Positions 3,154 through 6,381 of a DNA stretch of 64,000 bases are shown piece after piece. The translations under genes and the position numbers were made by a program. Source of the DNA: Oscillospiraceae bacterium (lineage in GTDB: Bacteria; Bacillota; Clostridia; Oscillospirales; Ruminococcaceae); NCBI GenBank assembly GCA_016281125.1, contig JAEEIA010000040.1:26784-90783 (forward strand), given 5' to 3'. Within the stretch, counting starts at the first letter, position 1. The number at the start of each line of letters is the position of its first letter. Below the pieces are notes generated by a model that was not told the DNA's origin, ran no database searches, and was given only the letters and a program-made list of their open reading frames with translations.

Positions 3154-3444
3154 ATGGCACTGGATATTAAGGCTGAGATCGAAAAAATCATTGCGCAGGT
3201 GACCAAGGACGGTGACCTGAAAGAAAAGTTCATGAAGGATCCGGCAGCGACCGTCCGCGGACTGGTCGGCGATCAGGCGGATGACGATACCATCAAGAAG
3301 ATCATCGAGATGGTCAAGGAAGCAATCGGCAAGAGCGGCGGCCTGAGCGGCCTCGGCGAGAAGATTACCGGCGTACTCGGCAGCATCCTCGGCAAGAAGG
3401 ATGATGACAACGACGACAAGAAGGAAGAAAAGAAGGACGAATAA
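3154..3444 (+). CDS. small acidic helical protein of unknown function
   Basis: 96 residues, starting at ATG 3154 behind GGAGGTATTACA rather than at the ORF-track start 3127. The N-terminal 65 residues look helical, with a KFMKDPAATVRGLVG segment that recalls short Clostridia proteins and, more loosely, nitrile-hydratase-type leader segments. A glycine-rich stretch (GKSGGLSGLGEKITG) follows, then a charged Asp/Lys/Glu tail. There is no signal peptide, membrane segment or catalytic motif. I do not recognise a function. No modification enzyme lies nearby, which argues against a peptide precursor. Confidence 0.75.
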   Translation: MALDIKAEIEKIIAQVTKDGDLKEKFMKDPAATVRGLVGDQADDDTIKKIIEMVKEAIGKSGGLSGLGEKITGVLGSILGKKDDDNDDKKEEKKDE

Positions 3445-3557: not shown

Positions 3558-3584
3558 TGTGACCAAACAGAAGGTTTTTCCGTC
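3558..3584 (+). promoter_or_regulatory. possible ECF-type promoter of the sigma factor operon
   Basis: TGTGAC, 17 bases, CGTC, lying 27 bases before the start codon. It resembles the TGAAAC/CGTC elements used by SigW- and SigM-type factors. No good TATAAT is present here, so self-activation by the encoded sigma factor is a fair inference. Confidence 0.4.
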
Positions 3585-3610
3585 TGTGGGTGTAAAGGAG
3601 GTCAGAACGC

Positions 3611-4174
3611 ATGACAGCAGAGGATCAGCGGCTGGTTGCTATGTTTGAGTCCCGGGACGAACAGGCAATCGCAGAGGCCGAAAAAAACTACGGCGGATTC
3701 TGTTACAGCATTGCCTACCGCATTTTGCAGAATGTACAGGATGCGGAAGAATGTGTGAATGACGCAATGCTCCGTATCTGGAATGCAATTCCGCCTGCCA
3801 AACCCGACAGCCTGCGGGCTTTTGTCATCACACTGACAAGAAGGCTCGCACTTGACCGGTACGATGCGCACCGTGCGGCAAAACGCGGCGCCGGTCAGAC
3901 GAATATCCCGCTGGAAACGCTCTCCGGCAGTCTGACATCGACAGCGGACCCCGCGCGCACAGCAGAGCAGAAGATGCTCCGCGAGGCACTCGGCAGATTC
4001 CTTTCCGGTCTGCCGAAGGACACCCGCATCATGTTTGTGGAGCGTTACTGGTATATGCTGTCCGTGCGCGAGATTGCAGAGCATCACGGTGTCAGTCAGA
4101 GCCGTGTGAAAATGTCACTGTCGCGCACCAGGAAAAAGCTGGAGAATTTTCTGATGGAGGAGGAACTGCTATGA
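3611..4174 (+). CDS. ECF-family RNA polymerase sigma factor
   Basis: 187 residues, usual for an ECF sigma factor. Region 2 lies at ~20-90 (YSIAYRILQNVQDAEECVND, then LRAFVITLTRRLALDRYD). Region 4 lies at ~125-180, with the helix-turn-helix VREIAEHHGVSQSRVKMSLSR. The start follows AAAGGAGGTC. Its last codons overlap the ATG of the next gene by 4 bases (ATGA), which implies translational coupling and a sigma/anti-sigma pair. It should direct polymerase to a small regulon, probably including its own promoter. Confidence 0.9.
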   Translation: MTAEDQRLVAMFESRDEQAIAEAEKNYGGFCYSIAYRILQNVQDAEECVNDAMLRIWNAIPPAKPDSLRAFVITLTRRLALDRYDAHRAAKRGAGQTNIPLETLSGSLTSTADPARTAEQKMLREALGRFLSGLPKDTRIMFVERYWYMLSVREIAEHHGVSQSRVKMSLSRTRKKLENFLMEEELL

Positions 4175-5571
4175 ATGACAGAGAGCTTTACCGGCTGATG
4201 GAACTGATTCCGGAAGCATACACAGAGGAAACTGCGGATTTTCTGAAAATACACAGCGCAGATGACTGTATGGCAAAGCCCGCACCGGTCATCCGGAAGA
4301 ATACACAGGGGCTGCAAAACAACATCCTCTGGCGGATCCTGCTCCCGACCGGTGCTGCTGCCTGTCTGGCCGTTCTGGTTTTCGCGGGCATCCGGACCGG
4401 GCTGCATGAAAAGCCGGTGACAGAATCGTCCTCCGTACCCGAAATGACGGCTGTTGCTGCACAGACCGGAACGACGTCCGCGGAAACATCCCGTACCGAG
4501 GCAGCCGTACTGTACACCGAAGCCGTCAAGCAGACTGTCGTTCGTCAGGAGCGTACCGCCCCGGTGCAGAGCGGAACAACCGCCGTGACAGCAACCGAAA
4601 GCCGGCAGTCCGCAGACAGTGAACAGACAGTCGCCCGGACTGCGGCCGCGCAGGAAAAAGCAACTGAGCCGGCAGCAACTGCCGAACCCGCCCCGCAGCC
4701 TGACCCGCGCTATCAGCCGGGGGATGTCAATATGGACGGAACGGTGGATCTTTCAGACGCACAGATTCTTTATAAGGAGTATGTGGCCGTCGTCATTGAG
4801 GGCGGCGAAAGCATTCTGACCCCGCAGCAGATTGCGCTGGGGGATGTTTATCCGAATACGAAAGACGATAATCTGGATGTATACTTGGCAAGACTGCACG
4901 GTATAACAAGGCCTGAAGGAATAATCATGACAGACTATCTGATCAGCTATCAGGATTTCACTCTGATTATGGACTACCATACGTACAGTGTGGCGGGCTT
5001 TGACATGGGCGGCATGAATGTGTTGGAATATGCCGCGTATCTCGGTCTGCCGCCGGAGGAACCAGAGCTCCGTTACGCCGGAGAAACCGTTACCATGCGG
5101 GGCGATTCGCTCTCGAAGGACAGCGTAACCGTCAGAAGCCTCGGCAGCTTTCCGGTCAGCACCGAAAGATGGGAGATGACATATGCTTCGGTGGAATCCT
5201 GCGGTGATTTCACGATCATGTATGACGGCAAGGGCGACCTCGCAGGCCGCGGAGTCACCCTCTACGGTAGAATCAGTCAGGGAAAAAGGCATACGGACGA
5301 GTATTCGGAGGATTGGGAACGCAGCGCTGCGGATGGAGGCATGGAAAAACACGCTGTCGGTGACACGGCAGTTTACCTGGATCGGGATTCTTACGGCACC
5401 AGCAGCCGCCGGAACAAAGAAGCATCGTGCTATGATACCATAGCATTGGAGTGGAGAAACGGCGATTATCTGATATCCGTCAGTACACACAGTCAGGAAC
5501 CGTTTGAAACGTATCCGGATGAGATTCTGGAGCAGATCATTGCAGATTTTGTTGTCATTCCGGCGAAATGA
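4171..5571 (+). CDS. anti-sigma-like single-pass membrane protein with extracellular dockerin-like module
   Basis: 466 residues. Residues 1-49 are cytoplasmic and charged, suitable for holding the sigma factor. Residues ~50-75 form one membrane segment (PTGAAACLAVLVFAGI). Residues ~78-175 are a Thr/Ala/Glu stalk. Residues ~183-245 resemble a dockerin: GDVNMDGTVDLSDAQ is a good calcium loop, but the second loop, GDVYPNTKDDN, is degenerate. Residues ~250-466 are an unassigned extracellular domain. In cellulolytic clostridia, RsgI-type anti-sigma factors display carbohydrate-sensing modules outside. This protein has a similar layout but no RsgI N-terminal signature that I can recognise. The anti-sigma role is inferred from coupling and topology. 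Confidence 0.75.
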   Translation: MNDRELYRLMELIPEAYTEETADFLKIHSADDCMAKPAPVIRKNTQGLQNNILWRILLPTGAAACLAVLVFAGIRTGLHEKPVTESSSVPEMTAVAAQTGTTSAETSRTEAAVLYTEAVKQTVVRQERTAPVQSGTTAVTATESRQSADSEQTVARTAAAQEKATEPAATAEPAPQPDPRYQPGDVNMDGTVDLSDAQILYKEYVAVVIEGGESILTPQQIALGDVYPNTKDDNLDVYLARLHGITRPEGIIMTDYLISYQDFTLIMDYHTYSVAGFDMGGMNVLEYAAYLGLPPEEPELRYAGETVTMRGDSLSKDSVTVRSLGSFPVSTERWEMTYASVESCGDFTIMYDGKGDLAGRGVTLYGRISQGKRHTDEYSEDWERSAADGGMEKHAVGDTAVYLDRDSYGTSSRRNKEASCYDTIALEWRNGDYLISVSTHSQEPFETYPDEILEQIIADFVVIPAK

Positions 5572-5586
5572 ATACAATAAATATAA

Positions 5587-5614
5587 GGGGCGCTGATGTA
5601 ATAATCAGCGCCCC
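5587..5614 (+). terminator. strong hairpin after the sigma/anti-sigma operon
   Basis: GGGGCGCTGAT pairs with ATCAGCGCCCC (11 bp) 16 bases after the stop. No T-run follows, so it may stabilise the mRNA end as well as terminate. Confidence 0.6.
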
Positions 5615-5630
5615 ACAGCTTGTAGAAAAA

Positions 5631-5819
5631 GGTATCGCTGCGCGAGGATTCATAATGAGGGCTCTGCCCTCAAGCTCCTGCTGGGGATATATCCCCAGAC
5701 CCCATTTTGTATATAAATGACGAAGCTGCGAACTTATCATCAAAGTGGGATTCCAAAGGGATAGTATCCCTTTGGCGGGTTTGGGCGGAGCCCATTATCA
5801 ATCATCGCGGAGCGATACC
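5631..5819. repeat. interspersed palindromic element, copy 1
   Basis: 189 bp bounded by imperfect inverted ends: GGTATCGCTGCGCGAGGATT on the left, and GGTATCGCTCCGCGATGATT read from the right on the other strand. The pairing extends into ATAATG. Inside are two perfect hairpins: CTGGGGATATATCCCCAG (5681-5698), and CCAAAGGGATA/TATCCCTTTGG (5753-5775). Related copies lie at 54026-54220 and 59146-59205. It contains no convincing ORF. The element starts 4 bases past the stop of the phosphoesterase gene and may serve as its transcription end. Confidence 0.75.
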
Positions 5820-5823
5820 GTTG

Positions 5824-6381
5824 TCACAGCACGGGTGTTCCCGCCTGCCAGGTGCGGTATACAGCACCGTCAATCGTTTTCCACGTAAACACGCCGTTTT
5901 CCAGAGCTATATAACTGTTTTTTGAACCGTCCTTCGGGATTGACACGGAGCCGGGATTCAGGCAGACATGCCCGCCGGCCTCCGCGCAGAGCGGCACATG
6001 CGTATGCCCGTACAGCAGAATATCCCCCTGCCGCAGCTTCGGCAGATTGTCCGCATTCCAGACATGTCCGTGCGTTGCGAAGATCTGCACGGCGCCCTCG
6101 GAAATCAGCGCGTAATCCGCAAGCACCGGGAAATCCAGCACCATCTGATCGACCTCCGCCTCGCAGTTGCCGCGCACACAGAGAATGCGGTCAGCCAGCG
6201 GATTCAGCAGCGAAATCACCGTTTTTGGCGCATATTCCTGCGGCAGATCGTTGCGCGGCCCGTGATAGAGCAGATCCCCGAGCAGCAGCAGACGGTCTGC
6301 CTGTTCTGCGGCAAAGCGCTCTGTCAGCAGTCTGCAAAAATGCGCAGAGCCGTGAATATCCGATGCAATCATCCATTTCAT
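5824..6381 (-). CDS. yfcE: YfcE/MJ0936-type metallophosphoesterase
   Basis: 185 residues, usual size for YfcE-like phosphodiesterases. The five metal-binding blocks are all visible: SDIHG near the N-terminus, GDLLYHGPRND, GNCEAEVD, ATHGHVW and GHTHVP. It should hydrolyse a small phosphodiester with a two-metal centre in the cytoplasm. The physiological substrate of the family is uncertain. Its ATG overlaps the stop of the upstream gene (ATGA), so it is the last gene of a three-gene minus-strand operon. Confidence 0.9.
   Translation of the reverse strand: MKWMIASDIHGSAHFCRLLTERFAAEQADRLLLLGDLLYHGPRNDLPQEYAPKTVISLLNPLADRILCVRGNCEAEVDQMVLDFPVLADYALISEGAVQIFATHGHVWNADNLPKLRQGDILLYGHTHVPLCAEAGGHVCLNPGSVSIPKDGSKNSYIALENGVFTWKTIDGAVYRTWQAGTPVL

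Follow-up and report, generated by a model that had tools for sequence, protein, structure and literature searches.

In the DNA analysed here, the gene for an ECF sigma factor overlaps that of a putative membrane anti-sigma factor whose extracellular part carries a divergent dockerin. The pair is a new form of ECF/anti-sigma signalling, functionally like the SigI/RsgI arrays, and our leading interpretation, held at a probability of about 0.5, is that it forms a sensor on the cell surface, which engages a cohesin through its dockerin and controls an autoregulated sigma factor. Dockerins and cohesins are plug-and-socket modules that join the parts of the cellulose-degrading machine; were this interpretation right, the bacterium would read the occupancy of its own extracellular machine, and the cell might read the assembly of that machine, beyond sugars alone. 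The window, a stretch of 64,000 nucleotides, belongs to a genome of 3.9 Mb (G000) from a gut bacterium that degrades fibre; by comparison of the locus, its closest named relative is Ruminococcus sp. Phil11 (metagenome assembly, L101). The locus is composed of the following features.

3558-3590, plus strand: ECF-type promoter, with a -35 element TGTGACC at 3558-3564, a 16-base spacer and a predicted -10 element CGTCTGTGGG at 3581-3590
3594-3602, plus strand: ribosome-binding site AAAGGAGGT, from sequence
3611-4174, plus strand: ECF sigma factor of 187 aa with regions 2 and 4, from Pfam and NCBIfam matches
4171-4174, plus strand: ATGA overlap of sigma stop and partner start, indicative of translational coupling, from sequence and repeated in almost all of 31 pairs
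4171-5571, plus strand: putative membrane anti-sigma factor/sensor of 466 aa, from the open reading frame, Pfam and homologues
4171-4320, plus strand: cytoplasmic N-terminal domain, residues 1-50, presumed to bind sigma, from a pattern common to 31 paralogues
4336-4392, plus strand: single transmembrane segment, residues 56-74, from hydropathy
4405-4704, plus strand: low-complexity stalk rich in Thr, Ala, Ser and Glu, residues 79-178
4711-5004, plus strand: dockerin module with a split second repeat, residues ~181-278
4723-4758, plus strand: first calcium loop DVNMDGTVDLSD, residues 185-196, intact
4843-4956, plus strand: second calcium repeat, residues 225-262, with an insert of ~26 residues, from alignments
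5038-5568, plus strand: C-terminal extracellular domain of ~180 residues, residues ~290-466
5587-5614, no strand assigned: hairpin GGGGCGCTGAT-N6-ATCAGCGCCCC on the 3' side of the operon, from sequence

The product of the first gene matches Sigma70_r2 over residues 27-88 (8.6e-13) and Sigma70_r4_2 over residues 125-177 (1.1e-11) in Pfam, as well as TIGR02937 (6.4e-25; 87.7 bits, cut-off 42.9). As both region 2 and region 4 are present and regions 1 and 3 absent, it is an ECF sigma factor; a sigma of the SigI type, which has no region 4, was ruled out on the same evidence. The preliminary description had proposed an ECF sigma factor joined by an ATGA overlap to a membrane partner, and both the domain matches and the coupling of the two genes, with the stop of 3611-4174 overlapping the start of 4171-5571, bear this out. 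At the level of sequence, the partner is a coupled, single-pass protein with a cytoplasmic N-terminus. This sigma clade has 31 members in the genome (30 are 39-100% identical over nearly their full length, and one is a weak match), every one followed directly by the gene for a single-pass protein and nearly all with the 4-base ATGA overlap. The N-terminal domain of the partner follows the pattern M-x5-Lxx(M/L)xxIPExYxEE and matches no curated anti-sigma family in Pfam or NCBIfam, for which reason "putative" is kept in the name; no curated profile seems to cover this anti-sigma clade. Across the array, similarity among the N-terminal 45-residue segments tracks similarity among the sigma factors (Mantel r=0.56, p=0.0002), as expected if sigma factors and N-terminal domains are cognate partners, and we infer that the partner acts as an anti-sigma factor. 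The missing family match would suit a partner that is only a co-expressed surface protein, with the sigma factor controlled in some other way, but this is very improbable given the Mantel correlation and the recurrence, in 31 pairs, of one arrangement, a single transmembrane segment and one N-terminal pattern.

On the extracellular side, Pfam Dockerin_1 scores 20.4 bits (E=5.9e-4) against a cut-off of 22.9, and the module is therefore named a divergent dockerin, its homology being shown by a family profile (A2) made from five related proteins of the same kind and two small secreted proteins. Among PDB entries, the profile matches the dockerin of ScaH (8ajy, E=1.1e-8) and, at E about 3e-4, the X-dockerin of CttA (4wkz and 4iu2; 3.3e-4 for 4iu2), the CttA match covering most of the profile length, second-repeat insert included. 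In a search of the whole genome with the profile, the partner at 4171-5571 scored best, ahead of two small dockerin proteins and then, in fourth place, the C6 scaffoldin dockerin. Both F-helices are present in a model of the module (pLDDT 75); its top seven fold matches among PDB structures all fall on dockerins, with ScaH best (probability 0.99) and E-values that are weak. Within the first loop, D or N at positions 1, 3, 5 and 12 and Gly at position 6 are kept in the homologues of the same type. The first calcium repeat and its helix are 36-64% identical to eight homologues, against identities of 11-37% in the C-terminal domain and 18-39% in the stalk; since this repeat and helix are among the best-conserved segments, the dockerin assignment goes beyond chance.

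The second repeat calls for a different description from the one first given. A dockerin-like module with a good first loop was rightly recognized from the letters alone, but the second loop, described as decayed, is more than that, being split by the insert of ~26 residues, such that D225 to D262 span 38 residues in place of the usual 12 with the helix kept in the model. An insert occurs at the same site in the scaffoldin X-dockerins of the same genome (C86 and C58), and its shape is as in the X-dockerins of R. flavefaciens CttA. The group 4 and group 2 dockerins of R. flavefaciens (ScaH, the CttA/ScaB X-dockerins and the half-dockerins) include the closest solved relatives (8ajy, 4iu2/4wkz) and share the second-repeat insert, and their one-loop versions still bind cohesins (PMC5301203, PMC2930009), whereas the module here has no Gly-Arg pair and no X module was found with it, and it belongs to a membrane protein that also has a cytoplasmic domain. 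R. flavefaciens half-dockerins bind cohesins with a Ka of 10^6-10^7 M^-1, and the surface cohesin ScaE of R. flavefaciens FD-1 accepts half-dockerins with one loop as well as X-dockerins with an insert (PMC5301203); a damaged second loop is thus no argument against function. Dockerins that bind ScaE are recognized via Gly-Arg pairs (PMC5301203), and the module of the partner has Leu-Ser there instead. ScaE as a partner through these common residues was dropped, and the cohesin bound, if any, should differ from ScaE.

The sub-threshold Pfam score, the split and divergent second repeat and the missing ScaE recognition residues would also fit a structural, calcium-dependent fold that descends from dockerins but has lost cohesin binding, on a switch that reads envelope state or proteolysis like other ECF systems; the serpin and PASTA ectodomains of sister sensors, which suggest protease or wall cues, point the same way. 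Such a fold is unlikely, however, as the first loop and helix are kept across homologues, the insert has the shape seen in the scaffoldin X-dockerins of G000, and the half-dockerins of R. flavefaciens are functional (PMC5301203). More probably, the dockerin engages a cohesin. The preliminary description had made this idea depend on the presence of cohesin genes, and the genome encodes at least 16 cohesins; on contig C58, a surface-type single-cohesin protein adjoins a scaffoldin X-dockerin. The locus concerned (L181, G000:C58:11500-15646) has a protein ending in an apparent X-module and dockerin beside a single-cohesin protein with a C-terminal membrane anchor, an arrangement resembling the end of the R. 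flavefaciens sca cluster. The same contig encodes another membrane-bound dockerin, a protein of 219 aa (L196, 1105-1764) in which a zinc-ribbon-like motif at the N-terminus and a membrane segment accompany the dockerin, and for which no sigma partner is obvious.

The layout first proposed for the partner, namely a cytoplasmic part, one membrane pass, a stalk and a dockerin-like module, was confirmed, but it overlooked the C-terminal domain at residues ~290-466. In the stalk, Thr and Ala account for 18 and 20 of residues 79-178, respectively. The C-terminal domain has no Pfam match at E<10 and is poorly conserved, the exception being locus L042; a likeness to DUF4367 seen by eye was unconfirmed and was dropped. 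The model of the full ectodomain was of low confidence (pLDDT 46) and was left out of the fold search. The C-terminal domain might be the real sensor, which counts against the leading interpretation, as do the divergent second repeat, the missing ScaE recognition residues, a strict promoter motif that in most genomes points to no targets outside the operon, an operon at 3611-5571 that has no small dockerin gene, and the orthologue with PASTA where the dockerin would be. By a related reading, the dockerin would be a tether that fixes the anti-sigma factor to the cellulosome or wall, with the signal coming from the C-terminal domain or from strain on the stalk (substrate or force). A further domain past the dockerin in all close homologues, the length of the stalk and an orthologue with a PASTA ectodomain, which would likewise place the sensor on a wall ligand, are in keeping with a tether, but conservation is lowest in the C-terminal domain (11-37%) and the first calcium repeat ranks among the most conserved parts, and we consider this reading rather unlikely.

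The promoter TGTGACC-N16-CGTCTRTGGG lies 5' of the sigma gene both at 3558-3590 and at five orthologous loci (L042, L043, L044, L045 and L047), and this conservation is the basis on which 3611-4174 is predicted to be autoregulated. At L045 (G001:C45:7690-7827), the promoter is present in two near-identical tandem copies ~100 bases apart. The preliminary description had located the promoter correctly, as its conservation before orthologous sigma genes attests, but the looser form proposed for tracing a regulon, TGTGAC-N17-CGTC, was not enriched, with 18 matches against 20 in a reversed control. With one mismatch at most allowed, the promoter motif is present once in G000. The strict motif is confined to the sigma factor's own promoter in G000, G002, G011, G024 and G028, corresponds in G001 to the tandem pair, and is joined in G020 by three one-mismatch sites beyond the sigma promoter; in most of the genomes searched, it reveals no regulon beyond the sigma operon. 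With the strict motif essentially only 5' of the sigma gene, the regulon may be the operon alone. In L042, L043, L045, L046 and L047, the operon extends into one or two genes for small secreted dockerin proteins, and a small dockerin gene is absent from the operon at 3611-5571. Similar genes lie elsewhere in G000 (C76 and C38), where the motif search found no copy of the sigma promoter. The direct output of the sigma factor is therefore likely its own operon.

In the mechanism that we favour, cohesin sensing by the dockerin, the short cytoplasmic N-terminus would hold the sigma factor at the membrane in the resting state, while the flexible stalk would display outside a dockerin shaped like those of scaffoldin X-dockerins, followed by the C-terminal domain. 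When a cohesin is gained or lost, whether at the cell surface or within the cellulosome, the ectodomain would change, with either direction of signal conceivable, and this change would probably lead to regulated proteolysis of the anti-sigma factor. The freed sigma factor would then transcribe from TGTGACC-N16-CGTCTRTGGG, chiefly its own operon, and in related species the small secreted dockerin proteins of the operon could compete for the same cohesin.

Comparison among homologues shows that the ectodomain is exchangeable. At least eight keep the dockerin (L042, L043 and L045-L050); some lack it, which had been put forward as grounds for discarding the idea, and such homologues do exist, but what they show is an interchangeable ectodomain, not a spurious dockerin. 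The orthologue at L044/L102 has a sigma factor 79% identical to that of 3611-5571, a partner 56% identical over residues 1-117 and, at L044, a promoter that equals that of L042 in every base of motif and spacer. The ectodomain of this orthologue is of the PASTA kind and shares 44% identity over 536 columns with the ectodomain of L143 in G000, despite a sigma factor at L143 that is just 38% identical. Two more distant relatives, L217 and L218, have ectodomains that look propeller-like by eye. The swap at L044/L102 and the propellers imply an output part that is kept while input modules are exchanged among members, and the PASTA ectodomain of L044 shows that this sigma factor can do without cohesin sensing.

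The array within G000 is similarly varied. By eye, most of the 31 pairs have a TGTRACY-type motif followed, after 16-17 bases, by a GTC-containing element. PASTA ectodomains are found by Pfam in L126, L143 and L148, and a serpin ectodomain in L138 (3032-4525, G000:C25; Pfam Serpin 1.1e-60); a putative anti-sigma factor at L122 (4555-6015) also appears by eye to have a serpin ectodomain. The ectodomain of L141 is probably a second dockerin, as judged by motif and alignment. The ectodomains of L132 (2916-4556, G000:C1) and L137 (2984-4591, G000:C76) have no Pfam match and are related to tandem modules of scaffoldin-like proteins on C86 and C8 (best E 8e-16 and 4e-22; 0 of 100 shuffled controls matched), and the second half of L137 is related to the single-cohesin surface-type protein of C58 (1e-12); sequence profiles are documented to fail on ruminococcal cohesins (PMC11557425). 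These scaffoldin/cohesin-like modules would favour a role in reading assembly. Six pairs lie directly upstream of same-strand genes bearing dockerins, one of the dockerin matches being just under the cut-off. Across 25 genomes of the genus, members of the sigma clade number from 1 to 31, and the count rises with the number of candidate dockerins (Spearman 0.89, or a partial value of 0.64 once genome size is controlled for), a correlation that is supportive only, because the genomes are incomplete and mutually related. Extended to the array, the proposal is that cellulosome-forming ruminococci monitor the assembly of their own cellulosome by anti-sigma factors with a dockerin half (4171-5571 and probably L141) or a scaffoldin/cohesin-like half (L132 and L137), within an ECF array of ~31 members that replaces the sugar-sensing SigI/RsgI of Acetivibrio, with input domains swapped and the output sigma factor and promoter constant; we advance this wider proposal tentatively and would put it at somewhat less than even odds.

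Among the Firmicutes, ECF/single-pass anti-sigma pairs of the SigW, SigM and SigX types have an overlapping membrane partner and autoregulation from their own promoter. The pair here resembles them in all of these respects, including the ECF sigma factor, but differs in a partner without a curated anti-sigma match, a cellulosomal ectodomain and some 31 paralogues of the same clade in a genome. The SigI/RsgI systems of Acetivibrio (Clostridium) thermocellum and relatives are likewise arrays of sigma factors and membrane anti-sigma factors in a cellulosome producer, with one transmembrane segment, exchangeable extracellular modules and autoregulation (PMC6056542, PMC3413522), whereas the sigma factor here is of the ECF kind and has both region 2 and region 4. 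Most RsgI ectodomains bind sugars (CBM3, CBM42, CBM35 and PA14; PMC3413522), in contrast to the dockerin, cohesin-like, PASTA and serpin ectodomains of this array. RsgI_N (PF12791), the marker of the Acetivibrio carbohydrate sensors, was found in none of the 25 genomes of the genus, with a positive B. subtilis control, and Pfam scans revealed no CBM in the partner or its 30 sisters. Functionally, the earlier comparison with RsgI was apt, yet the proteins do not belong to RsgI: membership was rejected on the absence of RsgI_N, the presence of sigma region 4 and the lack of a carbohydrate-binding ectodomain.

An ECF/anti-sigma pair with a dockerin or cohesin is not mentioned in the literature searched, outside which most subscription journals lay, so that its absence is unproven. 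The regulation of the large cellulosomal gene sets of ruminococci has been described as not yet understood (PMC4081043), and a 2024 survey reported RsgI sensors in Acetivibrio-type cellulosome producers only (PMC11557425). An ECF array with cohesin and dockerin ectodomains would offer candidates for the missing ruminococcal regulators.

Several smaller observations concern the flanks of the operon. Upstream of the sigma gene, a 96-aa protein (3154-3444, ATG at 3154) ends in a DDDKKEEKKDE-type tail, and a like tail precedes the sigma gene in L042, L044, L048 and L050, which suggests conserved synteny. Downstream, the hairpin at 5587-5614 is a possible terminator. The intergenic DNA at 5620-5830 contains several short inverted stretches (GGTATCGCT..AGCGATACC), and a stretch resembling it occurs 5' of L126, so that this element is possibly an interspersed repeat.
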